Made by a program: the position numbers and the translations under genes
Part shown: in pieces, positions 25,607-62,943 of the stretch
Position numbering within the stretch: position 1 is the stretch's first letter
Layout: every line of letters starts with the position of its first letter
Assembly: GCA_036245525.1 (NCBI GenBank)
Contig: BTPG01000003.1
Span: 190,453,838-190,517,837 of the forward strand
DNA length: 64,000 bases
Reading direction: 5' to 3'
Origin: Semisulcospira habei
Taxonomy: Eukaryota; Mollusca; Gastropoda; Semisulcospiridae
The notes under the pieces: generated by a model
Databases searched by the model: none
What the model was told of the DNA's origin: nothing
Seen by the model: only the letters and a program-made list of their open reading frames with translations

Positions 25607-25738
25607 ATTTTGCAGTACCTTTTTCTTACGTTGCTAACTGCTTACTTTTTGTTCTCTCCCCATGGTGAGATAGTTTCCGTTACTTGAACGGCGGTAAACT
25701 CAAGTATCTAACTTCTCGTTCTTCTCTATTCGTGACAG

Positions 25739-28700
25739 AGAACTAGCGGACAGGAAAATACTGAACGAGAAGATGAAAGTTGAAGACAAGAAACAAAAGC
25801 TGCACGACGAGAGGGACAAGATTAAACGCATGAAAGAGACACTCGACCAGGAGTGGAAGGTCGTTCGAGAGATCAAAGACAAGATTGAGAAATACAAAAC
25901 GAAGATGGACGACAAGGCGTCCAAGCTGCGTGATCAGAAGTCACTGCTGGACACCGAGAGAGTGAACATGACGAACGAGAAGACTAAACTGGAGAAAGAA
26001 CGTTTTCTTCTTGAGAACGAGAGAGCAAAACTACAAGAAGAGAACGTGCGGCTCATGGCCCACAAAGAGGTGGTAGAACGCGAACAATGGGCGTTCGAGA
26101 AGGAGAAATCGGCTCTGGCTAAAGAGGCGAGAAATGCAGGAAGTCAGTCGAGTACGCGCGATGCGCGCCGCTTCAACCAGAATCGGGAGAGAAAACGTAA
26201 AACTGAGGACGAGGACAGCGATGAAAGCTACAAAAGCTCCCGCAAGCGGCGCAGAGACAAGGTGCAGAGATACGTACAAGTGTGTTCACCCGAGGAGGAC
26301 ACTTCCCTAGGCGCCACGTCGAGTGATAGTCTGACACAGGTCAAGCGTTCTCGTAATCGGGTGAAAAAGGCCGAAAGGTGTAGGCGCCGTAAAGAGAAAG
26401 CGCCTTGCACGTGCCCAACGGACGACACACGAGATAATGACGCCAGTGAGTCTGGCAGTCGCCGCAGAAAAGGCACGCGTCGAAAGAGAAACGCCTCACG
26501 CTGTAAGTCTGTCGACAAAGGACGTTCCGATTACGCGTGCAGTGATGCCACAGACACCTGGTCTCGCCAGCATCATTGTCAGCGTGTGCGCTGTGCAAAG
26601 CATGGTGAGATTACTGCCCAGTCCTTCCACGAAATACATCCTAACGGAAAGCAGATTGTGGGTGAAGGCAGAGAGAGGTCCCGTTCACCGTGTTGCTGTT
26701 GTCAGACTGTGGGTGAAGGCCGAGAGAGATCCCGTTCACCGTGCTGCTGTTATCAGACTATGGGTGAAGGCCGAGAGAGATCCCGTTCACCATGTTGCCG
26801 TTGTCAGACTGTGGGTGAAGGCCGAGAGAGATCCCGTTCACCGTGCTGCTGTTGTCAGACTGTGGGTGAAATCCGAGAGAGATCCCGTTCACCGTGTTGC
26901 CGTTGTCAAACTGTGGGTGAAGGCCGAGAGAGATCCCCTTCACCGTGTTGCCGTTGTCAGACTGTGGATGAAGGCAGAGAGAGATCCCGTTCACCGTGTT
27001 GTCGTGTCAGACTGTGGGTGAAGGCCGAGAGAGATCTCCTTCACCGTGTTGCCGTTGTCAGACTGTGGATGAAGGCCGAGAGAGATCCCGTTCACCGTGT
27101 TGCCGTTGTCAGACTGTGGGTGAAGACCGAGAGAGATCCCGTTCACCGTGTTGCTGTTGTCAGTCTTCCAAGAAGTCGTGTTCACATTGCTATTGTCGGA
27201 CGCCCACTGAAAAGCCCCCACAGGAAACAGAACGTGGGCTGCATTCTGGCGAGCAAAGCAAATTTTCACAATGGCATTGCACACTCTGTTGTCCCAATGC
27301 TAATAAAAACCTACCACTCTATACTAAAGCTAATGAAAAACTACAGGAGAAATCGCAGAACACACCTACGGCAGACGTGAAAGCACACCCGCATAACACC
27401 AAGCAATGCCTGGCATATGAAAGGCATTGTGAACACATTCACTGTCAAACGCACGGTGAGCTCAGCACTAGGTATTCGCACGAAAAACGATATAACAGAA
27501 ACAAGGATATGATTAACAGTACAAATGCTCCTGACAAATCGCGTCTCCCGGTTGATAATAAGACGAGTGAAGTACTCTCACAGGAAACTATCTGCGAATT
27601 TCCTCCGGAGGCTGAAAGAAACCAACCGGTATGTGTCGTGAAGAAAGCACACGATCAGGCAGAAGGTTTGAACTGTAGAGAAAAATATAATTATGGCAGT
27701 TTGTGCCCATGTTGTCTTTGTCTAAACTGGTCGCACACCATTACATCTGAACTACAGCGTGATAAAAAGAACGATGGGGTCACCACGACAGGTTACCACA
27801 TAGTACCAAGTGTCCAAATGCCTGCCACGCGACAACAATCTCTACCTTTTAACGTCAGCAAAAGCTGGTCCCACGAACGACAACGTGAACATGTGAGTGG
27901 TCAGGACTGTGGTGATGTCATTGCTGTCAGGGCACATGATCGTCGCCATCAATACAGTCCGCCTCAAAGAGTCCGTCAACCCGAAAGAAAGGCACTGGTT
28001 CAGAATGAGCAGGTCGCCGTCACACACCAACGAAGTCCTATGAACGGCATCAATAATTCACTTGGCCACAGTCGCCAAAGCTTGCACAGTAATGCGTCAA
28101 AGAGAGACACACAAGAACAGTCGCTTCCTTACGGCGTTAGCGAGAGCTGGTCACACGAGAAAATAAGAGAATACCAAACAGATGACGACTGTGATAAAGT
28201 GGTGACGGTCAGGAAGCACGATCAGCGCCAGCAGAGACGTGGTGATCGTAATCCCAATATTCACGTTAACCGTCTGGACAATAGCATAGCGGTCACTGCA
28301 AGTGATCATGTGAACTCGAACAGTTTGTTGCCATGTCAGAGCTGTCAAAGTTGTAAAAAAACGGCGCCAGAGAGAGATGTACCTGATCAGTCTTCACCGG
28401 AAATACAGTCGAAACATCACAAAACGCGCACTGGAGCTACGGCTCGTGGAATACCCAAAAAGCAGCACCAGCAGCTGCACCGGGGATCGACAGATAGGAC
28501 CCCTCTCGCGGAGGATGCATTGGCTGACGTCAGAGACAGCTGGTCTCGTGAGAGACTTCGCACCCACACCCGCAATCAGCAGCGCGATGACGTCGTCACC
28601 ACCACCACTCGTCAACGGAGACGGACACCAAGCAGAGATCGGGTTCATGAGAACTTGAAGAGTACTGCAAATGATGAGATCCGAGGTAAAGAACAGACAA

Positions 28701-29646
28701 CACTATCCCGACAGGAGCTGAACCCACTTGCTCATGAAACCGCCACTTCCAGCGTCAACAATGGGGTTAATCAAGTGCCCACGGACGTTGCCGTCCAGGT
28801 ATTCCAACAGCCGCCGGCGTCATACAATGCAGAGGACATACGTGGGGCTCAGTTTGAATGCGCCATGACGGAGAATGAGTGGACACAGGAGGCGCCCGAC
28901 ACACAGGTCGTGTGTGACCCTGACGGTGTCACAGTGACCAGAATAACCCGCAGCATATGGCACCGTAGAACACCGGAACCTCCCGCAGTAGAGACAAAGT
29001 CGTCCAGTCGCGTCCGCCTGGATAATCACGCCCCAAAGAAAGACAGGAGCAGGAGCAGGTCGCGCAAGAGACAAAAAGGCAAAGAACGAGATTCACCCAG
29101 CAGCAGCCGATCACGAGAAACCCTCTCAAACACCAAGCGTTCGCGTAAGAAGCGGAAAGGCGACGACAGCGGAAGTGTGTCACGCGAACAGAGCCCATAC
29201 GATTACAGTTCACCTGACTACAACCCATATGAGTATTCGTTACGTGACCAGAGTCCACGTGACCGAAACTCACCTGACCAGACTGCGCGAAGTTACAGCC
29301 CACGTAACCTCAGTTCACCAGTGGCGGAATGTTCTTACAAAAAGATGACAAAGCGAGCGCCGAGTCCGCACGCCATAGCGGACCCTATTAACCCTCAGGA
29401 GCGAAGCGTGATCCTCAACAGCTGGTCGTGCGAGGAGTGGCAGGCGGTGTCGCAGGACGTCAACACTGGTGACGTTGTCGCACGCGAAGGTCGTCAGTAT
29501 CACACGATTCAGAACGCCAAGCCTCCCCTTCAGGAAGAGAAAGGAAATGACGAGCCAGACACACCCAGCGATCCTATCCCTCCGAAGGACAAGCCAGACG
29601 CGGAAGTGGCTCTCTTGCCGGGCAATGACGTGGCCCTGAAAGACAG
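25739..29646 (+). CDS. large gene, exon 10: coiled coil then giant RS/Cys-rich disordered insert
   Basis: The acceptor GTGACAG ends at 25738 and the donor ACAG|GTATGT follows 29646. It begins with about 130 residues of Lys/Glu coiled coil (ELADRKILNEKMKVEDKKQK). Next come ten copies of a 17-residue repeat, VGEGRERSRSPCCRCQT (26658-27166), and then about 800 residues of charged, Ser/His/Gln-rich disorder. A single base is missing in the repeat near 27001-27006, so the frame changes there. Adding one base makes the exon 3,909 long, keeping phase 2 on both sides. It can be skipped, since exon 9 joins exon 11 in frame. Confidence 0.8.
26658..27166 (+). repeat. coding tandem repeat, 51 bp x 10
   Basis: Each unit encodes VGEGRERSRSPCC(C/R)CQT. 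Copies differ by a few substitutions, such as VDEGRER and RSPSP. One copy lacks a base (TTGTCGTGTCAG instead of TTGCCGTTGTCAG). Confidence 0.9.
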
Positions 29647-29687
29647 GTATGTCTGGTTGCATTACATTCATATTTCTCCTTTGTGTG

Positions 29688-29795
29688 CAGGCCATCGGGC
29701 TGACGTCAGAGGTTAGCGCGGACGTCAGCCTTAGTTAGCCTGCGCACAGGAGTGCATGGGCCAGCTAAGACTGATGTTACCCCGAGGATCTTTAG
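29688..29795. repeat. family D palindrome, degenerate
   Basis: GCCATCGGGCTGACGTCAGAG and ACTGATGTTACCCCGAGGAT are the outer arms. It begins 42 bp after the exon 10 donor. Confidence 0.6.
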
Positions 29796-30910: not shown

Positions 30911-31105
30911 CGCGGGCTCGCGCAAGCGAGCGTATTCTCTAAATTGCGTCCAGTTAGCCAGTTCACGAATTAGACAACAGGAAAATAAATATTCACCTCT
31001 GTTTGCTGGACCGAATGCTGAGGTCATCCTGATTCTAATCTTATTGCAGTCCTGATGTTCAGTCTACGGTGGTTTTCAAGGGTACGTGTCTTCTCGTGTT
31101 CGCAG

Positions 31106-31189
31106 ACATCTGTGTCCGACCTGGCCAAGGGGGTTGTCTACACCTCCCGCAATGTTGGATCCTCCCGACAAGACTCCAGTACGGACACG
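31106..31189 (+). CDS. large gene, exon 13 (short form)
   Basis: The acceptor TTCGCAG ends at 31105 and a consensus donor ACG|GTGAGT follows 31189. The 28 codons are in phase 0 on both sides (TSVSDLAKGVVYTSRNVGSS). The phase fits exon 14. The reading frame does not close at the donor but stays open for another 1.4 kb (see 31190-32626). Confidence 0.75.
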
Positions 31190-32626
31190 GTGAGTGGCAA
31201 TGCTGTATCTTCTTCCAAATCCCTCTCCCGCGCGTCCTCTGACAAAAACCAAGTTGTCAGCGTTTCTAGCAAGACCAGCGTTTCTAGCAAGTCAAGCCGT
31301 AAGCCGTCTCTTGGGACAGTAATTGAAAAACGTTCTTCTAAACGACTTCGATCGGATCAGGAGCAGGGCACCGGCACCGGCTTTGAGTCAAACTGGGATA
31401 TCCCAAAGACGGCAGAGAAACCATATCATCCTTCACCTTTAAAGGTAGCAGAACAGCGTCCGTCAGAGAGGTCTGTGTGCAGCACAGGAGGCAGGTGTGA
31501 ACTGGGCGTGGAAACACCAGAAAGTGACGTGTGCTGTAACTGTAAGCTCAATCATCTGGAAGAAAAAGTGGCATCTGTAAAGGATCTCTGTGCACAGATT
31601 GAACAGTCAGCAAAACGAGAACAGAATACCACAGGTACAAAGCAAGCAGATCCACATGGACCAGTAGCTAGTTCTCGCTGTTCCATCGTAGGCGCAGCGT
31701 CGATGTTTCCTTCAGGACGTGACGCAAGGTCTTTGGAACGCGTATCCCCTAATCAGCGCGCTTTAGACGGGGAAGATGAGAGCCATACATCATCCGACCA
31801 CATCTCCGCTCTCATTCACTCTTGTGTGAACACTTCAGGTGAAACTGCGAGCCATTCTTCCTCCGACCGCATCTCCGCTCTCATCCGCTCTTGCGTGAAC
31901 GTCTCTGGCGAAACTGAGAGCCATACGTCCTCCGACCGCATCTCTGATCCCATCCGCTCTTGTGTGAACCCTTCAGGTGAACGTGAGAGCCATACGTCCT
32001 CCGACCGCATCTCCGCTCTCATCCGCTCTTGTGCGAACGTCTCTGGCGAAACTGAGAGCCATACGTCCTCCGACCGCATCTCCGCTCTCATCCGCTCTTG
32101 TGCGAACGTCTCTGGCGAAACTGAGAGCCATACGTCCTCAAACCGCACCTCCGCTCTTGTCCACTCTCGTGTGAACCTTGTAGCCAAAAGTGAGGGCCAT
32201 ACTTCCTCAGACCGCACCTCTCCTCTCAACTACTATTGTGTGACCCCCTCAGCCGAAAGTGGCCAGCCCGGAAAGGCCATCTCCCAAAAAGAGAAAGCCA
32301 GAATCCAACCTGAAAAGCCCAATGCACAGCGTGATGCGACTGATACTCGAGCCGTGAAAAAAGGCGGGCTACAGCAGACGCACAATGCAATACTCGCAGA
32401 AGGCCGTATAGTACCAGACATGACCAAAGGCAGGATAATCAATGATAGTGGCACGAATCCATATTCTTCTGTTTTCGTGATCGGCGAAAGCTGCAGCTTG
32501 TTTTCCGGCGTCATCAGCGAGCAGGACGTCAGTCTGAACCGCGCCGCTTCCAATGCCTATACAGACCCTGGCGATGACACATGCAACAACTCGGCCGACT
32601 ATCCTCCCTATGTAACTATGTTGTAA
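31190..32626 (+). CDS. large gene, exon 13 extension: alternative 3' coding end
   Basis: If the GTGAGT donor after 31189 is not used, the frame continues for 478 codons to TAA at 32624-32626. The sequence is Ser/Arg-rich (SSSKSLSRASSDKNQ, SVSSKSSRKPS). It contains seven copies of a 23-residue repeat beginning SHTSSDRISALIRS (31781-32263) and a CCNCKLNHLEEKVASVK segment. Such biased, repeat-built openness is not expected of intron sequence. It is therefore probably coding in an isoform that ends here. Alternatively it is a former exon now spliced out. Confidence 0.6.
   Translation: MSGNAVSSSKSLSRASSDKNQVVSVSSKTSVSSKSSRKPSLGTVIEKRSSKRLRSDQEQGTGTGFESNWDIPKTAEKPYHPSPLKVAEQRPSERSVCSTGGRCELGVETPESDVCCNCKLNHLEEKVASVKDLCAQIEQSAKREQNTTGTKQADPHGPVASSRCSIVGAASMFPSGRDARSLERVSPNQRALDGEDESHTSSDHISALIHSCVNTSGETASHSSSDRISALIRSCVNVSGETESHTSSDRISDPIRSCVNPSGERESHTSSDRISALIRSCANVSGETESHTSSDRISALIRSCANVSGETESHTSSNRTSALVHSRVNLVAKSEGHTSSDRTSPLNYYCVTPSAESGQPGKAISQKEKARIQPEKPNAQRDATDTRAVKKGGLQQTHNAILAEGRIVPDMTKGRIINDSGTNPYSSVFVIGESCSLFSGVISEQDVSLNRAASNAYTDPGDDTCNNSADYPPYVTML
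31781..32263 (+). repeat. coding tandem repeat, 69 bp x 7
   Basis: Each 23-residue unit follows SHTSSDRISALIRSCVNVSG plus three residues. The central copies are nearly identical and the last two have diverged. Confidence 0.9.
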
Positions 32627-36530: not shown

Positions 36531-36965
36531 CAATGATCCTGTGCAATTGTGACGTGGGGTTAATTACTTCAGAGTGGGCCAGATCAACCCCTGGCAATTT
36601 TATGTGAGGAGAATAACACGCCGAAACGACTCATGCCATTTCGACAACGGTTACACTGGTGTATATCGTTGTGAGCCGGGATTAGTCTGATGTAACAGTC
36701 ATTTTGTTTGCTGGACCCGATTACGTCATCAAAAAACCTGTATTAAGTAGGCGCTCTGTAAACTTCACAATTTAAAAACCACACAGGAGCCATAGGAATG
36801 ACTTCCGTAGGTTCTCCCAGCCCTTCATTAGACACAGTGTCATATTTTACCCAAGTTCTCCTAACACCCCTTATTTCCCGTTTAAAGAACATAGACCAAT
36901 ATAGATATAGATTCGTATTTGTAATTCTTTTATTGACAAAACATTCTCTCTTGTCTGCATCCGAC

Positions 36966-39110
36966 CCCCCTCCCCCTGGCTCACTGACGACACAGCTGAG
37001 GCCAAGCGCGAGCGCCGACAAGCAGAACGCCGCTGGCGCTCATCTGACCTCACCGTTTACAAACAGATCTTCCAGACAACTAGATCCAAAGTCTGCAGAA
37101 TGATCTCCGACTCCAAACGTAAACACCTTCAAAACAAAATCCTGAAATCCACTTCTTCCAAAACCCTCTACGCCACCATGAACTCACTCCTAGGCATTTC
37201 TAAAGATTCACCTCTCCCCAACACATACAGCAAAGAAGAACTCCCGTCCGCTTTTTCCACCTATTTTCCCGACAAAATCCAAACTCTGCGCAACACACTC
37301 GACACTCTTCCTTCTCCGCCTTGCCCTCCCGACACCCCCTTTTCCGGCACCCCCCTCTCGTCCTTCCAGGCCGTCTCTCAGGATGAAGTCCTCAAGACCA
37401 TAAAGTCCATGTCTCTCAAAACCTGCGAACTAGACCCTCTCCCAGCTTCTCTCTACCGGGACGGCCTTCCAAAACTTCTGCCATTCATTACCGACATCAT
37501 GAACACATCTCTAGAGAACGGTTCCGTCCATGACATCTTCAAGTCCGCCATCGTCCGTCCTCTCCTCAAAAAACACAACCTCGACCCAAACGAACTCAAA
37601 AACTATCGCCCAGTCTCCAATCTATCTTTCCTGTCCAAGCTTCTTGAGAAGGTCGTCTCAACCAGCTCAACCTCCATCTCGCCGACAACAACCTCCTCAG
37701 TCCCTTCCAGTCTGCCTATCGCAAACATCACAGCACTGAAATAGCCCTTCTACATATCTTAAACGAGCTGCTTCTCTCCACCGACTCGGGCAACATCTCC
37801 CTTCTTACGCTACTCGACCTCTGTGCCGCCTTCCACACTACAGACCACTCTATCCTCCTCCACCGCCTTCACCGTTCCTTTGGCATCACTGACTCTGCTC
37901 ACTCCTGGTTTCTCTCCTACCTCTCCGACAGACAGCAGTCCGTCACCATCTACGGCGTCTCCTCCAACCCAGTCACGCTCTCCTGCGGAGTTCCACAGGG
38001 GTCCGTCCTGGGCCCGGTCCTTTTCACACTCTACACCTCTCCCCTGTCCAACATCATCCAGTCTCACCACATACACCACCACCTCTACGCTGACGACTCA
38101 CAACTACTAGACAAAGACAAACTCGACAACACTCAGTCACTACTGACTCGCACGGCTGACTGCTACGAAGACGTGAAAAACTGGATGACAGCAAACAAGC
38201 TTAAACTGAATGACGACAAAACGGAAGCCATGCCGGTAGGCACTCGCCAGAAACTTTCCCAGTTCCCTCCCTCCCTCCACCTTCAACTCGACAGCACCCC
38301 CATCTCCCTCTCTGACTCGGCCAAAAACCTCGGCGTTATCCTCGATTCCTCTCTTTCCATGACCAGCTTTGTTTCCGCCACGGCCCAGGCATGCTACTTC
38401 CACCTCCGCCGCATCGGTCAGATCAGAAAATACCTCACTACCGAAGCTGCGACCAAACTTGCTGTCTCTCTCATCCTATCTCGCATCGACTACTGCAACT
38501 CTCTCCTTTCCGGCCTCCCTCACTCCACCACTTTCACTCTCCAACGCGTCCAGAACAATGCTGCCCGCCTCGTCCTCAGAAAGAAAAAATCCGACCACAT
38601 AACTCCCCTGCTCAAACTCCTTCACTGGCTTCCCATCCCCCAACGCATCCAATACAAGATTCTGTCTCTCTGCTACAAATCCCTGAACAACTGCGCTCCC
38701 GCTTATCTCTCAAACTTACTTCACCCCTACACTCCTCCCCGCTCCCTCCGCTCCGCCTCCGACCCTCTCCGCCTCCACATCCCCCGCACTAAACTCAGCA
38801 CTTTCGGCCCCCGCTCCTTCTCAGTATACGGTCCATCCATCTGGAACACTCTCCCACTCTCTCTCCGTCAGAAACACTCTCTCTCCTCCTTCCAGTCCGC
38901 CCTAAAAACTCACCTCTTTCAACAGTTCTAGCACTATACCACCACACTCCCCACCCTAAGCAGACTGTCGTAATGTTTTCACTATTTGTGGTTCGTGAGT
39001 CGTTGTCTAAAGCGTGCGATTGCGTGCGCGAGTTGTGAGTGCGCGCTTAGAGTTATAATTATTATAAGATAAGCGCATTATAAATACCGTAATTATTATT
39101 ATTATTATAA
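36966..39110 (+). mobile_element. L2-clade LINE, 5'-truncated, nearly intact reverse transcriptase
   Basis: It begins inside the linker region (AEAKRERRQAERRWRSSD). The reverse transcriptase has LKNYRPVSNLSFLSKLLEKV, FQSAYRKHHSTE, LDLCAAFHTTDHSIL, GVPQGSVLGPVLF and LYADD (about 38090). It ends in the L2-type C-terminal region (WLPIPQRIQYKILSL, FGPRSFSVYGPSIWN, THLFQQF, TAG at about 38931). One frameshift near 37655 is the only clear break. The 3' end has the GATAAGCGCATTATAAATAC stem and an ATT-rich tail. It lies in intron 17. Confidence 0.9.
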
Positions 39111-39411: not shown

Positions 39412-39496
39412 GCAATGGGAGAAGGACAGGGCAGATTTGGAGGTGCGGATGAACAGAATGGACGCAGAAGCATCTGCTGCCTTTAGAGAGAAAGAG
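39412..39496 (+). CDS. large gene, exon 18: coiled-coil segment
   Basis: The acceptor TATGTGCAG ends at 39411 and the donor GAG|GTACGA follows 39496. One base completes a Thr codon. QWEKDRADLEVRMNRMDAEA continues SAAFREKE. It leaves in phase 0, which fits both exon 19 and exon 21. Confidence 0.85.
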
Positions 39497-40100: not shown

Positions 40101-40175
40101 TAACACATCTGGAAATGGTATCAACAGACGCCCGATAAGAACCCAGAGAGGTTGACGTCACGATAGGTGTATCAG

Positions 40176-40347
40176 AGGCAGTACCATCAGCCTGGAGGGA
40201 AGATGCCAGTTGTTCGACGTGTCATCTGTAGAACAAACTGGTACTATGGACAACAACAGGACGAGGACGAGAAAGATGCAGCAAAGCACGGGCTACTCAA
40301 GAACGGGTCGGACGAAGAGACAGAGTGGCCACACAGTAACGGGTCAG
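40176..40347 (+). CDS. large gene, exon 19 (short form)
   Basis: The acceptor GTATCAG ends at 40175 and the donor TCAG|GTGAGG follows 40347. It enters in phase 0 and leaves after one base. The peptide RQYHQPGGKMPVVRRVICRT is followed by an acidic, Gln-rich stretch ending PHSNGS. The two bases at the start of exon 20 complete a Gly codon, giving NGS-G-GTEIERSW. Confidence 0.75.
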
Positions 40348-41147
40348 GTGAGGAGACAGAGCACGTCGTAACAATCACATTTCAAGACACTAACCAGCGG
40401 AAGACACAGCAACAGGAGGTGGACCAGCAGCAAGGGAGCAATACTACCCCGGTTGAACAAGGCAAACGGCCTGAGAAACCTGTGGAAATTGAGGAAACAT
40501 CGGATTATGACACAGACGTCCAAATGCGCCAGGATCTCGACAACTGCATACAAAAGCCCAGGGAAGACACCGCGACATTGCAGAGCCAAGTACAAATCCA
40601 GGAACCCAAGATAAGAAAGAGTGAACAAGATCAAATTCAACACCAACAAGAACAGCTAGGCGCGACAAGGTGGTCGGAAGAAAAGATCCAGAAAGAAAGG
40701 ACAAGAGAGTGTGAACAAGATAAAAGCCAAAAGCACAAGCAGCAACCGAATACCACAAAGTTTCTTCAAGAAGAATCCAGTGACCGTGACTGCAACAGAA
40801 AAGAATTTGAACGAACTCGAGAACAACAGCAACCCAAAGCTACACCGGACCAACCCACGCATCAGCTTTGGCAAGCCGAGGAAACGTCAGAGTCCGAGCA
40901 AGACGAAATCTTGCCCTTCTGTGACCAAGAACAGCAAAAGTACCAGCATAGTCACAGCAAGGAAACGCAATTCAATAAAGAGCAAAGACAGGAAAGCATG
41001 AAAACAAGGCAAGACCGAACAAAAGAAACCGGGCAATTCTACCATCGTCAGCAGCCCATTAAAAAGCTGACTTTCCAGAGAACTGATGACACAAGCTGCC
41101 TTAATTATCAAGTGAAAGAGTGTTCCTGCGCATGTTGGACTTTGTGA
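40348..41147 (+). CDS. large gene, exon 19 extension: Gln/Glu-rich alternative end
   Basis: Beyond the donor at 40347 the frame stays open for 266 codons to TGA at 41145-41147. The sequence is dominated by Gln, Glu and Lys (RQDLDNCIQKPREDTATLQS, HQQEQLGATRWSEEKIQKER), like the early part of exon 20. This is either a coding alternative terminal segment or a once-coding segment now spliced out. Confidence 0.55.
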
Positions 41148-41540: not shown

Positions 41541-41723
41541 TGTGAGCTGTAACGGCTAGATAATCATACCAAGAATATTTTTAGAGTACATGGCACCAGT
41601 TCGTATCAGTAAAGCTCACCAGTCAGGACGATGTAAGTATTACGGTCGATCCATCTCCCGCAAGTTGAGCTGGGAGTGGATCTACCAGCAGGCAGATTAG
41701 AAATTGTCGCTTTATCTCCTCAG

Positions 41724-44700
41724 GTGGTACAGAAATCGAAAGAAGTTGGCGTGACCCAATCCCTTCACACAGGGACGCGGAGTGTACACCAGGCCCTACC
41801 TTCGTCAGTTTCAACCCAGAGTCGTCGCAGTACGAACGAACCCGGAACGGCAGAACCGCATCCAACGAACGCAAAATGCACGAGAAGCAACATGTCACAG
41901 AAGAAAGGTTTTCGTGGAACCCAAAGCGAGAGGCTAGTTCGTTAGAGTCAGGCCTGGAACAGGACCTCCTTTGTAAACGCAAAGAGCACGAGAAGCGAAA
42001 TGGCACAGACAAAAAGCTTACTTTGTACCCAAACCGAGAATCTAGTTCATCAGAGTCCGACATGGAACAGCACCTTTTTAAAGATTGGACACAATGGGCT
42101 AGGCCAAAGCAAAACGAAAGCAGACAGTGTCACTACGATCAGGAAAACGAAGTAATAAAGATCGTGTGTGAACAAACTCATTCCAAGCAAGAAAATGGTG
42201 GCGAGTTTGTGCCAGATCTTAACCTGCGTGTTCATGCCGTCACCGGCACTGTTTACGGTACCTGTGGCTGCATACAAAAGGGGTTTACAAGGGAACCCAA
42301 TATCACTCAATATAAACAGGCTCAGAGCCGAACAGCCAAATACAGAGCAAGTAAGCGCGTCCAGGACGCAAAACGTTATGAACCCCTCCAGAACCAAGCC
42401 TGCCGGGACAAAGAAGCTCAGCGATTCAAGAAGCAGCAGGATAGTGACAAAACCTGGAGCGAGAAACCCCGCAAGAGTTTATGTGAAGAAAGCCGTAACT
42501 GTCAGCGTGATAACACAGTATCAGAGCAAGACAAGAACTTGCAATTTAAGAGCACATCAAGCGACCACGATCAAAAGTCACGAGATACTGGCGCAAATTC
42601 AAGACAACAACGAAACTCACAAACTGAAGAAAAATACGAGAAGAGAAATCATAAAGAGCAAGACAATGTTGTTGAAAAGAAGAGCAAGCAGAATTGCGAA
42701 ACAATGCAAGACCAGAAGCAGAAATGGGATGTTACAGATTGTGAGCAGGACCAATGCCGGCCGGCCTACGTTGCCGAGTGTATGCAAGATCACAAGCGAA
42801 AAACAAGCGAAACAAAATGTGAGGGACAAGGCCGGAGTACAGAGACAGCAGAATGCGCGCAGGACCAGATCAGGGAAAGAACCAAATCTAAACGTAAGAA
42901 CGGTCAAGACCAGAACAACCCAGAGCAGAGCTTTAAGAAAAGAGAGCACGAGCAAGGCCACGGCAGCAAAACTGAGAGAGCCGAGTGCTTGCCGGATACC
43001 AGTAAAAAACCCGTGCCAAAACAAAGGCATTGTCGCCAAGACAGTGATAGACCCCCCCGTGCGCGCAACATCATTAGGCCAGTGTCGGCCACGGTTGACT
43101 CGTGCACAGCCGTGCACTGGCTAAACACGGCCGACGTTGGTCTGGTAACCCTAGATTACTGCATGACTGATTATGCAAGTTGGCATGACCGACAAACTAA
43201 CGAAAAAGAACAAAATGGAGAAACGCAAATGCAGAGCACGGGACACAGCCATGTAAGGTTCCAGGAAAAAGTTAACCAATATGAAGACAAACATGCAGAC
43301 AAAACCACCGAGTGTGCGTGCCAGGAATGCCAAGGTAATAACGGACACAGCGTTGACATGGAGGGAACTGAAATCGATGAGCTCACGCATCATCTTCTTG
43401 GGCTTAGAAATGACCGGCAACATTCGTGGGGACGGCCGCATGCCCCAGATAATACAGCTCACAAATTCACACAAGAACGGCCTTGGACTCCGAACGCAAC
43501 CTCTGGACACTTCGAAGATTGGCAACCATATCCTGAGGTGCCATTGAACAGAAGCAAAAGATTTCTGATCTCGTATAGACAGAAGGAAAAATCAAAACAG
43601 CGAAGACAAGAATGCTGGAGCGGTCTTGCCAAGACTAGCACACGGTCTATGGAAGACACAGCAGAAACATCGGAGTGCCCAACTGTACCTGAGGCGCATA
43701 TTCACGCAGGATGGGACACGCTCATAACAAGTACAGAATGGGACACACCCAGAAGAAGTACACAACGGGACAAACTAGACACAAGTAAAAAATGGGGTCC
43801 ACCAAACGCAAGCAAAGAATGGGATACACCAGACACAAGTGAAACAAGCACAGAAGAGGACAGACCACACACTAGCACAGAACGAGGCACACCCAGCGCC
43901 AACACAAAATGCATCACACAGAGAACAGGTATCGAACGGGACACACCAAGAATAAGCAAAGAACGGGACACACCAAGAATAAACAAAGAACGGGACACAC
44001 CAAGAATATGCAAAAAACGGGACATGCCTGAAATGAGCCCAGACTTTCAAACGCGTAGAACACATATGGAACTGGACATTCGTGAAACAAGCAAGACACT
44101 AAACACAAACATAACACGCACAGAACTTGACACTCCCGAAGAATATATAATGTCTTATACGCCCAGAGTACGTGCAGTCATGCTAAGAGCATGCACAGAC
44201 TCTTACAAATCTACACCAAGCAGAAAATCAAAGTCACCTAGAGCTGGTGCAGACCTTAACCCGTGCGTGCATGCAACCACACATACTGCAAACAGTACCG
44301 GTGACTGCATGTTCAGTGGGACTGACACACTTGAAACAAGTACAGATTTAGGCACACCCAAAGCCATTGTAAAATCGAACATCCCAGGTACAAGAACAAA
44401 ATTTAACACACCTGGAACATTAAAAGGGCCATACTCACCTGAAATAATCACAGAGTCTAGCACACGAGATACAGGCATAAAATCAAACACACATGAAACA
44501 AGCACTAATTTATACCGACTTGGATCAAACATAGAGATGTACGTACTAGATGCCAGCACAGACTCGTTCACACTTCAAACAAGCACGGAGTCGTACGCAC
44601 CTCAAACAAATACAGACTCGTACACACCTGAAGTAAGCACAGATTTGTACACACCTGGAACAAGCATTCACTCAGACATCCCAGATGCATGCACACAATC

Positions 44701-47700
44701 AACCACGTCAAGCTCAGAATCAAACATTCTTGATACAAGCATAGACACTTATATTTTACCAGAATTGAGCTCAGGTCCCTACAGCCCTGAAGCAAACGCA
44801 GACTCATTCACACCTAAAGCAAACCCAGATTTATACACAAGCAGAACAAGCAAACATCTGAACGTCCCAGATGAAAACACAGAATCAAATACACTTGAAT
44901 CAAACGTAGGTTTGACTAGACATGACACAAACTTAGAGGCGCACGTAATACAAAACAGGTCAGAATTCAAAACATCTGAAATAAGCCCACAGTGGAACAC
45001 ACACGACACAAGAATAAACCTGGATGCATCGAGCGCATGCGCAAAGTCAAAGTTACTCGGAACTGGCAAGGACTCGTATTTGTCCCAAGCAAGCGTGGAA
45101 TCAAAGATGCCTGAAACAAGCGTAGACTCCAATTCACTCACAACCAGCGTGCAATCAAGGATATCCCAGACAAACTTGGAATCGAATTCACACCAGACAC
45201 GTGCAGAATCGAACTTGCCCGGGAGCAGCATAGGATCGTATTTATTGCAAACAAGCGTGGAAATAAAGATACCCAGAACAAGTATAATGCTGTGTTCATC
45301 CCAGCAAAGCATTGGAATAAAATTCAAATCAAAAATAGCCAAAAGAAGCGTATGGACACCTACAAGGAAAACAGAAACAAACGCCTCTGAAACAAAGCCA
45401 CGGTCAGAAGCACCTGACACGAGTGCAGAGTCACACGCTCATGAAACATGCGCCGAATCAGAAACATCTGCAAAAGGCGCAGCATTAGATTCTCCTAAAG
45501 TAAGGCCAGAATTGGACACACCTGAAACAAGACGAAAATCATACACACCTGAAACAACCAAACAAATGAGCGCACCCGATACAAGCACAAAATCAGACGG
45601 ACCGGAGAGCAGCACAGAAGTAGACATACCTAATGCAAGCATACACGTGAACACTTCCAGAGAATACATACATCCAGACACAACAAGAGCAAGCATGGCT
45701 TTGGACACACCAAGAGCAAGCATGGATTTCGGCACACCAAGGTCAAGCATGGATTTTGGCAGACCAAGGTCAAGCGTGCATTTAAGCTCAACAAGAGCAA
45801 GCATGGATTTGGGTTCACCAAGAACAAGCATGGATTTGGGCACACCAAGAACAAGCATGGATTTGGGCACACCAAAAGCAAGCATGAATTTCGGCACAGC
45901 CAGAACAAGCATGGATAAGGACTTACCACGAGCAAGCATGGATCTGGGCACACCACGAGCAAGCATGGATTTGGGCACAGCGAGAACAAGCATAGTTATG
46001 AGCACACCACGAGCAAGCCTGGATTTGGAGATACCACGAGCAGGCATGGGCACACCACAAGCAAGCATCTATTTTGGCACACCGCAAACAAGCATGGATT
46101 TGGGCACTCCAAGGTCAAGCATGCATTTGGGCTCACCAAGAGAAAGCATGGATTTGGGCTTACCAAGAGCAAGCATGGATTTGGGCTCACCAAGTGCAAG
46201 CACGGATATGGGCACACCAAGAGCACGCATAAATCTGGGCACAGCCAGAACAAGCATGGATAAGGGCATACCACGAGCAAGCATGGATCTGGGCACACCG
46301 CGAACAAGCATGGATTTGGGCACAGCAAGAACAAGCATGGATATGGGCACACCAAGAGCAAGCATAGATTTGGACATACCACAAGCAGGCATGGCTTTGG
46401 GCACACCGGGAGCAAGCATGGATTTGGGCACACCAAGAGCAAGCATAGATTTGGGCACACCACGAGCAAGCATGGATTTGGGCACACCACGAGCTAGCAT
46501 GGATTTGGGCACACCACGAGAAAGCACATCTTTGGGCACACCACGAACAAGCATAGATTTGGGCACACCACGATCAATCATGGATTTGGGTACAGCGAGA
46601 ACAAGCATAGATTCGGTCACACCACGAGCAAGCATGGATTTCGGCTCACCAAGAGCAAGCATGGATTTGGGCATAACAAGAGACAACATGGATTTGGGCA
46701 CAACAAGAGCAAGCATGGACTTAGGCGCACCAAAAGCAAGCGTGGATTTGCACACAGCGAGAACAAAGGATATGGGCACACCACGAGCAAGCATGGATTT
46801 GGGCATACCACGAACAAGTATGGATTTGGGCACAACGGGAGCAAGCATGGATTTAGGCACACCGGGAGCAAACATGGATTTGGGTACAACACGAACCAGC
46901 ATGGATTTGGGTACACCAGGAACAAACGTGAATTTGGGCACACCACGAACAAGTATGGATTTGGGCGCAAGAGGAGCAAACATGGATTTCGGCAAGGAGA
47001 GAACAAGAATGGATCTGGACAAACCACGATCAAGCATGGATTTAGGCACACTATTAGCAAGACTGGTGTTTGGCACACCACGAACAAGCATGGATTTTGG
47101 CACACCACAACCAGGCGTGGATTTGGGCACACCACGAACAAGCATGGATTCGGGCACACCACGAACAAGCATGGATTTGGGCACGCCACTATCAAGCATG
47201 GATTTGGGCACAGTGAGAACAAGCATGGATTTGGGCACACAACGAGCAAGCGTGGATTTGGGCACATCACGAGCAAGCACGGATTTCGGCTCACCAAGGG
47301 CAAGCATGGATTTGGGCACAACAAGAGCAAGCATAGATTTGGGCACACCACGAACAAGCATGGATTTCAGCACACCAGGAGCAAACATGGATTTGGGCAA
47401 ACCAAGAACAAGCATGGGTATGGGCACACGAAGGGCAAGCATGGATTTGGGCTCACCAAGAGCAAGCATGGATTTGGGCACAACAAGAGCAAGCATAGAT
47501 TTGGGCACACCACGAACAAGCATGGATTTCAGCACACCAGGAGCAAACATAGATTTGGACAAACCAAGAACAAGCATGGGTATGGGCACACGAAGGGCAA
47601 GCATGGATTTGGGCTCACCAAGAGCAAGCATGGACTTAGACACGCCAAGAGCAAGCATGGATTTGGACAAACTACGATTAAGCATGGATTTAGACACACC

Positions 47701-48484
47701 AGGAGCAATAATGAATTTAGGCACACCAAACACAAGCGTAGATTTGGGCACACCAAGAGCAGACATGGATATAGATACACCAATAGCAAGCATGGATTTC
47801 AGCACAAGCGTAGATTTGGGCTCACCAAGAGCAAGCATGGATTCGGGATCAACAAGAGCAAGCATGGATTTGGGTTCAGCGAGATCAAGCTTGGATTTGG
47901 ACAAACGAGCAAACATGGATTTGGGCACACCACGAGCAAGCGTTGATTTGGGCACACCAGGAACAAACATGAATTTGGGCGCATCAAGAGCAAGCATGTT
48001 CGTAGACACACCAAGAGCAAGCATTGATTTGGGCAAACTACGTTTAAGCATGGATTTAAATACACCAGGAGGAAGAATGGATTTGGGCACACCAAGCATA
48101 GATTTGGGCTCACCAAGAGCAAGCATTGTTTTGGGCACACCTAGAGCAAGTATGAATTTGGACACACCAGAAGCAAGCACGGATTTGGGCACATTACGAT
48201 TATACATGAATACAGACACACCAAGAACAAGCGTGGATTTGGGCTCACCAAGAGCAAGCATGGATTCGGTCACACCACAAGAAAGCATGAATTTAGACAA
48301 ACCAAAAGAAAGCATGGATTTGGGGACACCGAGGGCAATCATGGACTTTGGCACACCAAGAGGAAACGTAGATTTAGACATACCAAGAGCGAGCATTGGT
48401 TTCGGCACACCACGATTAAGCATAGATTTAGACATACCAAGAGCGAGCATTGGTTTTGGCACACCACGATTAAGCATGGATTAA
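41724..48484 (+). CDS. large gene, exon 20: giant exon with 9-residue repeats
   Basis: The acceptor CTCCTCAG ends at 41723. The exon enters with two bases completing a Gly codon and is open for about 2,250 codons to TAA at 48482-48484. Residues up to about position 43700 are Lys/Glu/Gln/Asp-rich (EHEKRNGTDKKLTLYPNRES). From about 43720 on, everything is a 9-residue repeat. First come diverged copies (SKERDTPRI, TSTESYAPQ), then about 103 copies close to SMDLGTPRA. The repeats are rich in Thr-Pro-Arg and have no strong hydrophobic core, so they are likely extended or disordered. An in-frame family D palindrome lies at 43060-43147. The exon has no donor before its stop, so transcripts using it end here. 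Confidence 0.8.
43060..43147 (+). repeat. family D palindrome inside coding exon 20
   Basis: The D-type arms can be followed (GCGCAACATCATTAGGCC...GGCCGACGTTGGTCTGGT) with a GTGCACAGCCGTGCAC centre. The reading frame passes through it without a stop and encodes about 29 residues unlike their Gln/Lys-rich surroundings. Confidence 0.7.
43720..45691 (+). repeat. old part of the 27-bp coding minisatellite
   Basis: The nine-residue register is still visible (ERDTPRISK, TDSYTPEVS) but units differ at most positions. Codon-level periodicity is conserved, with Thr-Pro or Ser-Pro and Asp recurring at fixed places. Confidence 0.8.
45692..48484 (+). repeat. young part of the 27-bp coding minisatellite, about 103 copies
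   Basis: The unit is AGCATGGATTTGGGCACACC plus seven bases, encoding SMDLGTPRA. Copies vary mainly at the last codons (RA, RT, RS) and include higher-order duplications. An example is the block with TTRASIDLGTPRTSMDFSTP, which occurs twice at about 47300-47630. The antisense strand is also open over most of it because the unit contains no antisense stop. Confidence 0.95.
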
Positions 48485-50960
48485 GACACACCAAAAGCAA
48501 GCATTGATTTAGACATATCATGAACAAGTATGGAATTAGGGACACCAACAGCATGATTGGATTTCGGGACACCAGAGGCAGTATGAATTTGAGCACACCA
48601 AGAGCAGGCATGGATGTAGACACACCTATAGCAAGCATAGATTTCGGCACACCAAAGAGATAGTATGGAAATAAGCACACCAAGTTCAAGTATAGTTTTG
48701 GGTACACCAAGACCAAACATCGATTTAGATACACCAAGAGCGAGCATGGCATTTGGCACACCACGATTAAGCATGGATTTAGACATACCATGAGCAAGTA
48801 TGGAGTTAGTGATACCAACAGCATGCATGGATTTCGGCACACCAGAGGCAGTATGAATTTAGGCACACCAAGAGCAGGCATGGATGTAGACACACCAAGA
48901 GCAAGCATGGATTTGGGCAAACCACAATTAAACACGGATTCAAGCACACAAAGAGCAAGCATTGATTTAGACATACCAAGAGCAAACGTGGATTTCGGTA
49001 CACCACGATAAAGCATGGATTTAGACAGACCAAGAGCAAGTATCGATTTAGACACACCAAGACCAAGCATGGATTTTCAAACACCACACGCAAAAATGGA
49101 TTTGGGCACACGAAGAGTAATTATTTATGTAAACATACCAAGCGTAAGCTTAGATATGAGAACACCATGATTTAAACGTCGATTTGGGCACACATGGAGT
49201 TCGACACACCTAGAGCAAGCATGGCTTTCAGCACACCTAGAGCAAGCGTGGGGTTCGGCACGCCAAGAACAAGCACTGATTTAGAGACACCAAAAGCAAC
49301 CATGGATCAGGGCACACAACGAGCAAGCGTGCATTTTGTCACAACTGGAGCGAACATGGATTTGGGCACACCAAGAGCGAGCATGGATGTACATACAGCA
49401 AGAGCAAGCATGGACTTGGGCGCACCAAGGGCAAGCACAGATTGGGGCACACCAAGAGCAAACATGGATTTGGTCACACCTAGAGAAAACTTGGATATGG
49501 GTACACAACGAGCAAGCATGGATTTAGACACACCAAGAGCAAGGATGGATTTGGGCGCACCAAGAGCAAACACAGATTGGGGCACACGAAGAGCAAACAT
49601 GGATTTAGTCACATCTAGAAAAAAAACGTGGATTTAGGCACACCACGAGCAAGCACGGATTGGGCCACACCAAAAGCAGACATCGACTGGGGCACACCTA
49701 GAGAAAGCATGGATTTGGCAAATCAAGAGCAAGCATGGACTGGGGCACACCTAAAGCAAGAATGGATTTGGGCACATCAAGAGCAAGTACAGATTTGGGC
49801 ACACTCAGAGTAAGCATGGATTTAGACACACCAAAATCAAGCATTGGTTTAGGCACACCAAGGGCAACATAGATTTGGACACACTTAGAGCAACTTTGGA
49901 TTTGGACTCATGAAGAGCAAGGAAGGATATGAGAACACCAAAAGGAAGAATAGATTTGGACACACCTAGAGCAAGCATGCATTTAAACACACCAAGAGCA
50001 AGCATGGACTAGGGCACACCAAGAGCAAGCATGGATTTGGGCACATGAAGACCAAGTATCGGTTTGGGCATGCCAAGAGCAAGCATGGATTTGGACACAC
50101 TTAGAGCAGGAATGGATTTAGGCACACCAAAACAAGCATTGGAGTAAGCATGGATTTAGACACACCAAAATCAAGCATTGGTTTAGGCACGCCAAGAGCA
50201 ACTTACATTTAGGCACACCTATAGCAACTGCATTGTACATTGCTTAACGTCCCGACAGCAGCAAGGCTTTCTCAGGACGTGCCTGCACTGCTTGTGAAAA
50301 CAAAAATAAACAGAATATTGAATGTATGTCGCCAGCCGGTCCAATACGTCAAAATAAACCTACGCCATGGCGCCTAAATAAAGCTACGACCATTTAGCAA
50401 CACACACCCAATATCAAGAGCTACAGGCAGTGCAGACAGTTGGGAGAGTTTTAAAAAAGACAAATACAGGTGAATGGACCAAGGGTGACAGAAACACATG
50501 CCCCAGAATAGGGGAAAAACCCACCCTGTGGGGCTGACCAGGGTGACCCTGGGAACTAAAAAGTAGTTAACCCCACCCAAGTCCCCCAGGGCAGACCCGG
50601 GTGGGGGCTAGAGCAACTATGAATTCGGACGCACCAAGAACAAGCATGGATTTAGGCACAACAAGAGTAAGCATAGATTTTGCCACACCAAGAGCAAGCA
50701 TGGATCTGGACACTCAGAAAGCAAGCATGGATTGGGGAACACCACGATTAAGTATGGATTAGGGCACACAAAGAGCAATTATTGATTTAGACGCACCAAG
50801 AGCAAGCATGAATTTGTGCACACCAGAAGCAAGCACACCAAAAGAAAGCATGGATTTGGGCACAACAATGTCAAGCTTTGATTTTGGCACACCACGAGCA
50901 TGTATAGATTTGGGCACACCAAGAGCAGGCATGGATTTGTGCACACCAAGAGCACGCGCA
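48485..50960 (+). pseudogene. decayed 3' continuation of the 27-bp minisatellite
   Basis: The repeat goes on past the exon 20 stop, with units such as GCACACCAAGAGCAAGCATG still obvious. The frame is broken by many stops and indels. Short frames retain the protein pattern (for example 49194-49620). The array resumes after an inserted SINE-like element (50239-50612). This is the former 3' part of exon 20. Confidence 0.8.
50239..50612 (-). mobile_element. SINE-like dispersed repeat P, copy 2, inserted in the decayed array
   Basis: AGCAACT lies on both sides of the insertion, a 7-bp duplication. On the minus strand the element ends CAGGACGTTAAGCAATG-like, resembling the GACGTTAA tail of the SINE at 6310-6625. 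It is collinear with 20663-21072. Confidence 0.65.
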
Positions 50961-51101
50961 GTGGAAGAAAGAACATTACAATTCGACACACCCGATGACA
51001 GCAAAAACCCTTACAAGAAAACAAAGAACTTGGATATGAAAGATCTCGGCGGCAGCAGCGTACTAAAAACAGTGTGTAAAGTTTTACATTTCTGCTATTA
51101 A
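50961..51101 (+). pseudogene. remnant of the ancestral end of exon 20
   Basis: The last repeats (IDLGTPRAGMDLCTPRA) run without a break into unique sequence RAVEERTLQFDTPDDSKNPY, then a Lys-rich stretch and a stop at about 51101. This unique tail looks like the original continuation of the protein, now separated from the live frame by the decayed array. No strong donor is visible. Confidence 0.5.
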
Positions 51102-51367: not shown

Positions 51368-52450
51368 CTTTTTGGCTTGCGTGCGAAGCAAACGTGAGTT
51401 TATGTTCTGGGACAGTGGTCGTCCATCCGTCGTCTGCCGACTGTCGACCGTCCGCCCCCCCCCCCCCCCCCCCAAAAAAAAAAAAAAAAAAAAAAAAAAC
51501 CCAAACAAAACACTTTCACGTTGATATTTTCTCGGAGACTCTTCAAGCCACAGTCTTCAAACTTGGCCCACGGATACTTTGTGGCCAGACCTGTTTAAGC
51601 ATACCAATTTGAGTGACCTCTCACAAAGGTCAAGGTCACAGGGGATCTGAGAATAGGTAAAAAAAATAGCTATATTTTGACATAATTTATTATTTCTCAA
51701 ATACTATTGATAACTTCAAACCCAAATTTGGTACAAGGATTTCTGATAGGAAGACCTTTCTATGCATACTAATTTGGTTGATCCCTCGGAAAGGTCAAGG
51801 TCACAATAGCTCAGGAAATCTTTTTTTTAATAGCCATATTTGACAAAAGATTTTTTTCCCAATACTATTCACAACTTCAAACCCAAACTTGCTACAAAAA
51901 TACCTAAAGGTAAGACCTATTTATACATTTTAATTTGGATAACCCCTCGGAAAGGACAAGGGTCGCAAGAGCACAGGAAATAGGTAAAACATATATATTT
52001 TGACAAAAGATTCTTTTTCTCAAATACTATTCACAACTTCAAACGCAAACTTACTACAGAGATATCTGATGGTAAGACCTATCTATGCATACTAATTTTG
52101 ATGAGCCCTCGGAAAGGTCAAGGGTCGCAAGAGATCGGCAAATGTGTGTAAAATGCCAATTTTGGATAGAATTGTATTATTATCAACAGTTTTGCAAACT
52201 TTTCAATCAAATTATTTGGCACAAAGGTAGCTGATGATGGTTAAGACCTTCCTATGTATACTAATTTAGTCGACTCATTGCAAGGGTCAAGGTTCACGGG
52301 GGTTTGACAGATATGTCAAAACTGATTAAACTTTTGGAAAACATGGATTTTGCAAAAGTCATCCCTTTATTATTGCACAAAGGTCACACATGTAGATCGG
52401 TCATACACGTGAGCCATGAGGACTTTGCCTTTTTTGTTGTCGTTTTTTTA
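51368..52450 (+). repeat. dispersed repeat family Q, copy 3, longest
   Basis: It has the same order of motifs as 7417-8110, with an extra C/A homopolymer tract (51457-51500) and extra rounds of the CTACAGAGATATCTGATGGTAAGACC module. It ends GCCATGAGGACTTTGCCTTT. Confidence 0.75.
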
Positions 52451-53305: not shown

Positions 53306-53362
53306 GATATGGGTGCCCGCCTACAGATGGTGCAAGAGCGGGCCGCGCGACTGGAGAACAAG
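53306..53362 (+). CDS. large gene, exon 21: coiled-coil segment
   Basis: The acceptor CGTTGCAG ends at 53305 and the donor CAAG|GTAAAG follows 53362. The 19 codons are in phase 0 at both ends (DMGARLQMVQERAARLENK). The phase accepts a direct join from exon 18, bypassing the two repeat-rich exons. Confidence 0.8.
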
Positions 53363-60180: not shown

Positions 60181-62943
60181 AACGTGGCCAGCCGTCAACA
60201 GCACATGAAAGCCATGAAGGAAGCCGCCGAGATAGAGTCACGCTTTATGCGAGATATGGATCAGCATAGTCGACTGGCCCCCTCTCCTGAACCCGATGAC
60301 ATACACTTCTGGCTTCCCGGGGCTCCAAACCTGCAGCAGAACCCGCACAGTCAACCCTCATGGATCCGTCAATGTAGAACACCCATCTGCCAGCAATGCC
60401 CACAAACTCAGCCAGCTTGGATGCACAGAGCTCCAGCTGGGCCACCCCACAATCATCAATCTCAACAAAAAAATCATCAAACTCAACAAAATCAGTCATC
60501 CTTGGTCCGCCAGTGTAGAGGCCCGGCTCGTGATGATTTCAGGGGCGACATGTTGGGACCTGGCCAGCAGCAAGGAGAAAATGTGAATAATTTCAGACAG
60601 GCCAGAAACTTTCAGACAGCGGATGATTTCAATTCACAAAAGAAACACCTAACACCGGTCAGTTACAAGCCTGTAAGAGACTACTCCCAAGTTGACAGTT
60701 ACAGGTCGTTGCGAGAACAACCTCCTGTTGACAGTTGCAGGTTGTTGCGAGAACAACCCCCTGTTGACAGTTACAGGTCGTTGCGAGAACAACCCGCTGT
60801 TGACAGTTACAAGTCGTTGCGAGAACAACCCCCTGTTGACAGTTACAGGTCGTTGCGAGAACAATCCCCTGTTGACAGTTACAGGTCGTTGCGAGAACAA
60901 CCCCCTGTTGACAGTTGCAGGTCGTTGCGAGAACAACCTCCTGTTGACAGTTACAGACCGGCAAGAGAGTACGTTCCGCTTGAGAGTTACAGACCAACCT
61001 TGAGGGAATATTCCACTGCACCTCCAGAAGGGTGGCCATTGTCTCATGGAAATTTAGCTGACATCTTTATGTCTCATCCATGTGGCCTGGGATCTAATCG
61101 ATTTGATTTTCACGAGGGTACTGTGCCACCTCGTGTTCATCCTGCAGCCCCCGAAATTTCACAATCGGAGCTTGGGTTCTATGGGGACTATAGACACCAA
61201 GGTGCCCATACAGCGGACCCTATTCACGTTTCCCCGCATTGCAGATATGATTCCAGCCCCGATGCTTGTGGTACAATACACAGAGGACCAGTTCAACTCC
61301 CGTGGAAAGCACCAAATGGAGTGCAATCGCACACAGTCCGAGGGATAGTGATGCAACACCAGCAACAAGGAGATTCTCGTGATTTATTTCAAAGCAGATC
61401 ACAAATGCCTGAGGCAGCGATCCCCACAAGACCTCAGCCAGATTTTCATCATTCACAAACGTCCAGAACAGCAAACCCACTGGGATCAGCAGCTCCACAA
61501 GACGTTGTCCCTGCCAGATCACCCCAAAATGCAACATTCAATAAATCAAACGACGCCGCCCCACTATCAGACCACATGAAATCAGAGCGAGACATGGACA
61601 CGATGTCATCACCCCCTCTCAGTTTTCTGGACATCGTCACCCCAGAACCCAGCTACCAGAATCTCCAAACGAGCACCCCACGTACCGGAACTACGTCAGT
61701 ACCACAGCAAGATCAAGGACGCCTTACTCTTGAGGCTTCCACTCAAACCTTAGCCGGTGAAAGAGCGATAGTGCCAGTCACGCGAGAGATGTCCACTGCA
61801 GACACGCAGACAGTAGACGGTGATACCACCATTCCTTCGCACAGACTTTGGAACGTGGATCCATCGTCCAAGAGCAGGTTGTTGTCACAGACCTTCCTGA
61901 CTATCGAGTTGCGACCAGATGACACAGGCAGTCCGTCCGGTACCAACGTGATCGTGAGGATCCAGTCCAACACAGAGCTCACAGGACCAGGTCCACTGCC
62001 AGAGTACGAATCCACGTGGTCCGGCGGTATCGTCACGTCACCTGGCAAGGGTCCCAAGACCGCGCAAGAGAACACGACAGAATCGCAGTCGTACAACACC
62101 AACAGGACAAAGTATGAATCGTTTTCGTCTTCGGAGTACAGATACCAGTCTCCAACATCCATCCAGGGAGCTTACAGCTCCAGAGGCAAAGATACTGACT
62201 TTGACTACTCGGCCCAGCCTTCCGAACCGAAGAAAACAGAGGATTGGGATCCTTTGGCAAATGTCTCGGCTTGGCAGTCTTCCTGCAAAGGATCTGCAGT
62301 AGAGCAAGCAGGAGGTAATGTTCTCGTACAAGACACTTCAGCAGCCCAAACAGCTGCAGAAGGTTACGAGGTAAGGAGTAACGCTCCTAGTGACACTCCC
62401 GGAGAGCACTCCCGGGTCCAGCGGTATGACAGAAGTCAGAAAGCGGGGAGTAGTGCGCCCAGTGAAATCAGCCCAAAAGCAAGACAGCCAGTAGAGACTG
62501 TTGTTAGCCAGTGGCCGGTCCATGCCCGCATGATGAACTACTCTAGCGGCGGCGCACCCGCAACCATCGTTGACCCCACCTTGGTTCATGCTCCACTAGA
62601 TCAATGGGGTGCCACGACCATTCTCAGCTCCGCTCTAATGCAGCCTCAGCTACACCAGCTCTATCCCGAGCCTGCGACCATCCTTAACCCGCTGGTTCAA
62701 GCCCCACTCGAGCAGTTCGCAGGACAGCCCGCAGCTGGTCTGAACCCTGCTTTCACCCAAACCCACGTGGAACAGTTGACTAGTCCCTCCCTGATGCACG
62801 CGCACATACCACCATGTCAAGTGCACATCCTGTCAAGTCCGGCCTTCATCTCCGCCTGCCGACACGATCATCCAGGTCTGCTTCCGTGCCAGATGTCGGG
62901 GTTGGGCTGTCACTGTGGCGGGCTACCCGGCTATGTTACCACT
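60181..62943 (+). CDS. large gene, exon 28: helix then long Pro/Gln/Ser-rich segment
   Basis: The acceptor TTCTCCCAG ends at 60180 and a strong donor ACT|GTAAGT follows 62943. The 921 codons are in phase 0 at both ends. It opens with a helix (NVASRQQHMKAMKEAAEIES), then Gln/Asn/Pro-rich sequence. Seven copies of a 12-residue repeat VDSYRSLREQPP follow (60691-60942), then Ser/Thr/Pro-rich disorder with a Cys/His-rich end (HDHPGLLPCQMSGLGCHCGG). The frame stays open to 63021, but that stretch runs into a family B element. The GTAAGT donor is therefore the likelier end, and the gene continues beyond the window. Confidence 0.8.
60691..60942 (+). repeat. coding tandem repeat, 36 bp x 7
   Basis: The unit starts GTTGACAGTTACAGGTCGTT and encodes VDSYRSLREQPP. 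A diverged eighth and ninth copy follow (VDSYRPAREYVP, LESYRPTLREYS). Confidence 0.9.

Follow-up and report, generated by a model that had tools for sequence, protein, structure and literature searches.

A tandem array of a 27-base-pair (bp), nine-codon unit lies at ~43,705-50,957 of a 64-kilobase (kb) stretch of the genome of the gastropod Semisulcospira habei (GenBank assembly GCA_036245525.1, contig BTPG01000003.1, positions 190,453,838-190,517,837, forward strand; termed the window here, and all positions below are window positions). The array is about 7.2 kb long and consists of ~250 related units. It is open and free of frame-breaking insertions and deletions (indels) up to a TAA codon at 48,482, and broken beyond that point. 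The pattern suggests that the open frame is protected much more strongly than the peptide encoded by the repeats. With a probability of roughly two in three, the array is a putative disordered tract in which selection keeps the frame open while the peptide drifts. The assembly comprises 1.98 Gb in 507 contigs, with the window on a contig of 254 Mb, and a genome-wide search with an exact 27-base pattern gave one match, the array locus itself.

The array and its open frame

Several segments can be told apart within and directly behind the array:

43,705-45,691, forward strand: old 5' block, ~74 diverged units in frame, consensus STESDTPET (unit alignment)
45,692-48,472, forward strand: middle block, 104 in-frame units, consensus SMDLGTPRA (unit listing)
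48,473-50,229, forward strand: 3' block, first part; reading frame broken, beginning with the in-frame stop at 48,482 (unit listing)
~50,230-50,611, no strand assigned: mobile-element insertion of 382 bp with three AATAAA, flanked by AGCAACT on both sides
50,612-50,957, forward strand: 3' block, last part, units in register, one TAG (unit 180; unit listing)
50,958-51,076, forward strand: tail, open and single-copy, that continues the register of the units, coding-like score

Unit counts exclude fragments 0, 173, 174 and 188, and units 1-3 of the listing are assigned to the 5' block. The sequence-only reading had described a coding minisatellite with an old 5' part, about 103 young and uniform copies near SMDLGTPRA, and a decayed, non-coding 3' part. 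The unit listing bears out its position, length, unit and middle copy number. The 5' block is clearly older than the other two: its units are 64.8% identical to their own consensus, with a mean pairwise identity of 49% (68 of 75 aligned rows), and its alignment scores 656, whereas none of 20 codon-shuffled controls exceeds 37. Uniformity of the middle block does not hold, as mean pairwise identity there is 76% and an exact SMDLGTPRA occurs just four times in the whole open frame. The 3' block, taken overall (48,473-50,957, 78 scored units), has the same consensus as the middle block and is 82.5% identical to it, versus 85.7% for the middle units (p = 0.001). It is broken rather than much older; the description as non-coding stands, whereas its decay in sequence is slight. 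The mobile element and the open tail had not been remarked in the sequence-only reading. The middle and 3' blocks come close to equal divergence, the outcome across all units that the sequence-only reading had named as telling against it; the 5' block clearly departs from it. An antisense open frame of 803 amino acids (46,069-48,480) was taken as a by-product of a repeating unit with few antisense stops.

How well is the frame protected? No stop codon is found in 64 scored 5' units (the rows, out of 75, without gaps or insertions) or in the 104 middle units, whereas the 78 units of the 3' block carry ten. With as many changes as observed scattered at random over the consensus (300 runs per block), the stops expected are 16.1, 7.8 and 7.2 for the 5', middle and 3' blocks, i.e. 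~24 for the first two together. The 3' block is therefore at the neutral level and serves as the control against which the frame constraint of the other two is seen. Indels point the same way: the middle block has five, each with a length divisible by three, whereas this holds for two of the 12 indels of the 3' block (Fisher p = 0.003). Two pairs of the ten frame breaks are duplication copies, which leaves about eight independent ones. Since the first stop is what delimits the middle block, the fair measure is how far the units run without one; at the 3' stop rate (10 in 78), 168 clean units have a chance of ~1e-10 by simple arithmetic. A unit of 27 bp, a multiple of three, together with an open frame, as expected of a coding minisatellite, is found in the 5' and middle blocks only.

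Probable peptide drift between units

Is the repeated peptide guarded as well? On a tree of the units, non-synonymous changes outnumber synonymous ones 135 to 37 in the middle block and 127 to 43 in the 3' block, ratios that amount to 1.30 and 0.97 of the neutral value, respectively; pairwise comparisons give 1.32 (5'), 1.26 (middle) and 1.09 (3'). No purifying selection on the unit peptide was found between units by either approach. Strong constraint between units is unlikely, but constraint between species could still exist.

A scheme consistent with these results can be outlined. The array would form part of a large exon in a long coiled-coil gene, as a disordered tract able to expand, and would have been lengthened by local duplication of one to several units; since the unit is nine codons, such duplications leave the frame unshifted. 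Selection would remove stops and frameshifts and tolerate nearly any amino-acid change within the unit. Formerly, the whole array would have been read in frame, up to an exon end near 51,076. Then the appearance of the TAA at 48,482, altered splicing or a changed transcript end would have placed the last third outside the protein, where it may have gained stops, frameshifts and the mobile element at an approximately neutral rate while still duplicating. A stricter version, in which the array is a sequence-free spacer (the frame alone is kept and the residues are hardly constrained) within a skippable exon of the coiled-coil gene, and the lost third a built-in neutral control, is tentative and on balance somewhat improbable.

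Several points weigh against the outlined scheme as a whole. The absence of stops in the middle block is partly built in, as the block was defined to end at the first one. On the unit tree, the deficit of stop-type events in the same block lacks significance taken alone: two are reconstructed where 4.8 are expected (p = 0.14), and neither of the two appears as a stop codon in the sequence. The counts are not independent, since descent and recombination link the units. Codon-position entropies (positions 1, 2 and 3) are 1.35, 1.28 and 1.37 in the 5' block, 0.84, 0.64 and 0.61 in the middle block, and 0.73, 0.88 and 0.89 in the 3' block. Third positions are thus the most variable of the three in the dead 3' block and the least variable in the middle block, opposite to what coding constraint would produce, and the third-position excess is missing from the middle block and nearly so from the 5' block. 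This reversed pattern may reflect inherited unit variants. Splice donors at the end of the tail are weak (best score -0.02). Protein searches with three queries gave no relative at E <= 0.01: none for array-frame residues 1-700 (3665 candidates), and none among the matches listed for a predicted downstream exon termed H (7996 candidates scored) or for the joined coiled-coil exons, residues 160-670 (7983 scored). The evidence base is genomic and comes from one assembly.

Gene context and other readings

The gene model comes from a simple splice scan of the window; all exons are predicted, several with weak splice scores.

25,739, forward strand: large repeat-bearing exon, predicted (splice scan)
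34,764 and 36,108, forward strand: coiled-coil-like exons upstream of exon F, predicted (splice scan)
39,412-39,496, forward strand: coiled-coil-like exon upstream of F, predicted; ends in phase 0; acceptor 1.6, donor 2.1
41,724-48,484, forward strand: large exon F, predicted; acceptor before 41,724 with score 3.5; TAA at 48,482-48,484
53,306-53,362, forward strand: coiled-coil-like exon downstream of F, predicted; starts in phase 0; acceptor -0.2, donor 2.8
54,232, 56,146, 58,333 and 59,773, forward strand: further coiled-coil-like exons downstream of F, predicted (splice scan)
60,181-62,943, forward strand: large exon H, predicted; contains a coding repeat of 36 bp and remains open (open reading frame list and splice scan)

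Exon F lies within an open reading frame of 2271 amino acids (41,669-48,484, forward strand) that contains the 5' and middle blocks. The downstream frames are open despite the stop at 48,482. The exon at 39,412-39,496 ends in phase 0 and that at 53,306-53,362 begins in phase 0, so that skipping E and F (E being another exon of the predicted model) keeps the frame. F would thus be an alternative or skippable exon of the predicted coiled-coil gene. Could one transcript end in the array and another join 39,412-39,496 directly to 53,306-53,362? That F is such a cassette or alternative last exon has odds somewhat short of even. Besides the matching phases and the open downstream frames, the three AATAAA of the mobile-element insertion are in keeping with it, but the exon calls come from the simple scan and the scores of the two flanking exons are weak. 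It is compatible with an open frame under selection and a drifting peptide; the two are not mutually exclusive.

Alternatively, the 3' block may now be intronic, a splice inside the array joining the open part to the tail or the next exon, with the protein continuing. The tail is open and resembles coding sequence: of 3132 overlapping non-coding windows, 1.2% reach its score. It may be the old exon end. Exons further downstream are intact, including an open frame of 955 codons. Some middle units carry weak donors (GTATGG, scores up to 1.0), and a better donor at 45,500 in the 5' block (2.9, phase 0) would excise the whole middle block as well. However, acceptor-like sites between 48,400 and 51,080 are weak, the best reaching 0.88 in the mobile element and 0.17 in array units, and the strand is pyrimidine-poor (adenine-thymine skew 0.30 to 0.37 over 48,001-51,000). 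An intronic 3' block is unlikely. As to the mobile element, AGCAACT is present at 50,223-50,229 and 50,612-50,618; it is likewise found within an array unit at 50,197, which makes a target duplication suggestive only. A copy at another locus (L010) is 92.8% identical over 377 bp, and a diverged partial copy (76-81%) lies at 20,664-21,067 of the window.

According to the sequence-only reading, the array shows a gradient of age: units are born in the middle and die towards the 3' end, and the abundant Thr-Pro motifs would make a dense target for proline-directed kinases. Three duplications bear on it:

47,303-47,626, forward strand: clearest recent block duplication, six units (162 bp), units 64-69 versus 70-75
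48,500-48,930, forward strand: duplication in the dead block, 270-bp shift, shared TGA and -1 frameshift
49,813-50,226, forward strand: second duplication in the dead block, shared -1 deletion

In the first, five of the six unit pairs are identical between 47,303-47,464 and 47,465-47,626 and the sixth differs at two positions. This cleanest recent duplication does lie in the middle block, whose units are, as given above, slightly more alike than those of the 3' block; to that extent the idea of birth at one place survives. On the other hand, units 109-113 and 119-123 have a TGA and a one-base deletion in common, and a second such deletion recurs in units 158-160 and 170-172. These dead-block copies would have arisen after frame loss, or were homogenized later. 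Because they carry common disabling changes, duplication appears to be independent of coding status. Recent duplications are not confined to one place but are found in the middle and dead blocks, and growth limited to one array end was not found.

The kinase part of the claim fares no better. Instead of the hundred or so Thr-Pro-Arg motifs supposed, exact TPR is counted 38 times in the open frame. Thr-Pro occurs in 50 of 101 middle units and 44 of 75 3' units (p = 0.28), Ser/Thr-Pro in 60 of 101 and 44 of 75 (p = 1.0), and TPR in 33 of 101 and 29 of 75. Selection for a kinase target was set aside, as retention of Thr-Pro is no different between coding and non-coding units. Taken whole, the age gradient with its kinase target is improbable.

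Sequencing or assembly errors as the source of the 3' frameshifts are very unlikely. A one-base shift, which may reflect a single-base error or an allele, also occurs in a 51-bp coding array near 27,000, but all ten stops arose by substitution within the register, identical indels are seen in both copies of a duplication, a mobile element lies inside the block, and errors would have no reason to start at 48,482. Least probable of all is that the whole locus is a decaying pseudogene, open by luck: the array peptide lacks purifying selection between units and an exon termed B carries a one-base shift, but 2271 codons run without a stop and large frames on either side are open.

Other features of the locus are as follows. 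In front of exon F, a strong donor at 40,348 (TCAG/GTGAGG, score 4.8) matches the acceptor at 41,724 in phase; it lies within an open frame (40,167-41,147) that continues past the donor to its own stop at 41,147, perhaps an alternative end. The part of F preceding the array (41,724-43,690) has one full-length genome match among 40 scored hits (152 candidates), the other 39 being pieces of ~47-84 bp of dispersed repeats. Palindromic dispersed elements occur at 42,219-42,287 and 44,268-44,311, both within the open frame of F, and copies elsewhere end, as judged by eye, like TTAACCCC. Units 20-22 of the 5' block are disrupted where the second element lies; the frame is nevertheless kept. A different dispersed-repeat fragment at 43,067-43,140 of F has 81% identity to L007. 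Just after F, a 162-bp tandem repeat (51,587-52,133, 3.4 copies) contains AAGGTCAAGGTCAC-like stretches.

Three more coding repeats lie on the same strand, at 26,652-27,163 (51 bp), 31,777-32,258 (69 bp) and 60,691-60,956 (36 bp). All three units are multiples of three, with one open frame over the translated stretches except for a shift near 27,000. There, the 51-bp array is crossed by a one-base frame shift (frames 25,698-27,380 and 26,972-29,716), which may be an allele, a real break or a sequencing error. Another large predicted exon (L002, 68,774-69,680 with window numbering continued) is found downstream of the window, and the gene may continue. Two other open frames, at 10,207-12,510 and 36,911-38,931, resemble reverse transcriptases of long interspersed nuclear element (LINE)-type elements.

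The Pfam scan covered nine pieces, of which seven gave no hit. DUF6470 and DUF4236 scored above their cut-offs on the array, but no single stretch passed and both were taken to be repeat artefacts. PKD_5 on 31,022-32,623 (E 0.053) was below its cut-off. A search of the Protein Data Bank (PDB) with 25,698-26,600 gave a single weak hit, an amantadine-binding protein (E 0.21). No match was found in Rfam at gathering scores or by ARAGORN with the bacterial code.

Known repeat systems and significance

In the repeat segment of involucrin, a single exon combines repeat blocks that have diverged with others that are better preserved. The layout of the Semisulcospira array is similar, a likeness of repeat arrangement, but growth confined to one end was not found here. 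The zinc fingers of Prdm9, a coding minisatellite (PMC3890296), likewise show in-frame units, local duplication and rapid change between units. Accelerated evolution of repeats within a protein is described in PMC5120217, where dN/dS (the ratio of non-synonymous to synonymous rates) is nevertheless below 1 in the overwhelming majority of valid repeat pairs of human proteins. The ratio in the array, which is partly non-coding, is approximately neutral or above, and the array seems to be at the loose end of protein-repeat constraint, though by a simpler and different method than that of PMC5120217. Long internal exons rich in tandem repeats (PMC12457776) are comparable in that the exon is very long, indels keep the frame and the product is probably disordered. 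In contrast to those exons, the array here makes up most of the exon and one-third of it is out of frame.

Coding minisatellites and repeat-rich long exons are thus already known, and the present array is useful for its own neutral control. One exon holds related repeats in probably translated and untranslated states. The untranslated units offer a local neutral yardstick, by which selection on the frame can be separated from selection on the peptide without recourse to a second species. This helps to test a more general question: does a repeat tract need its sequence, or its mere presence?

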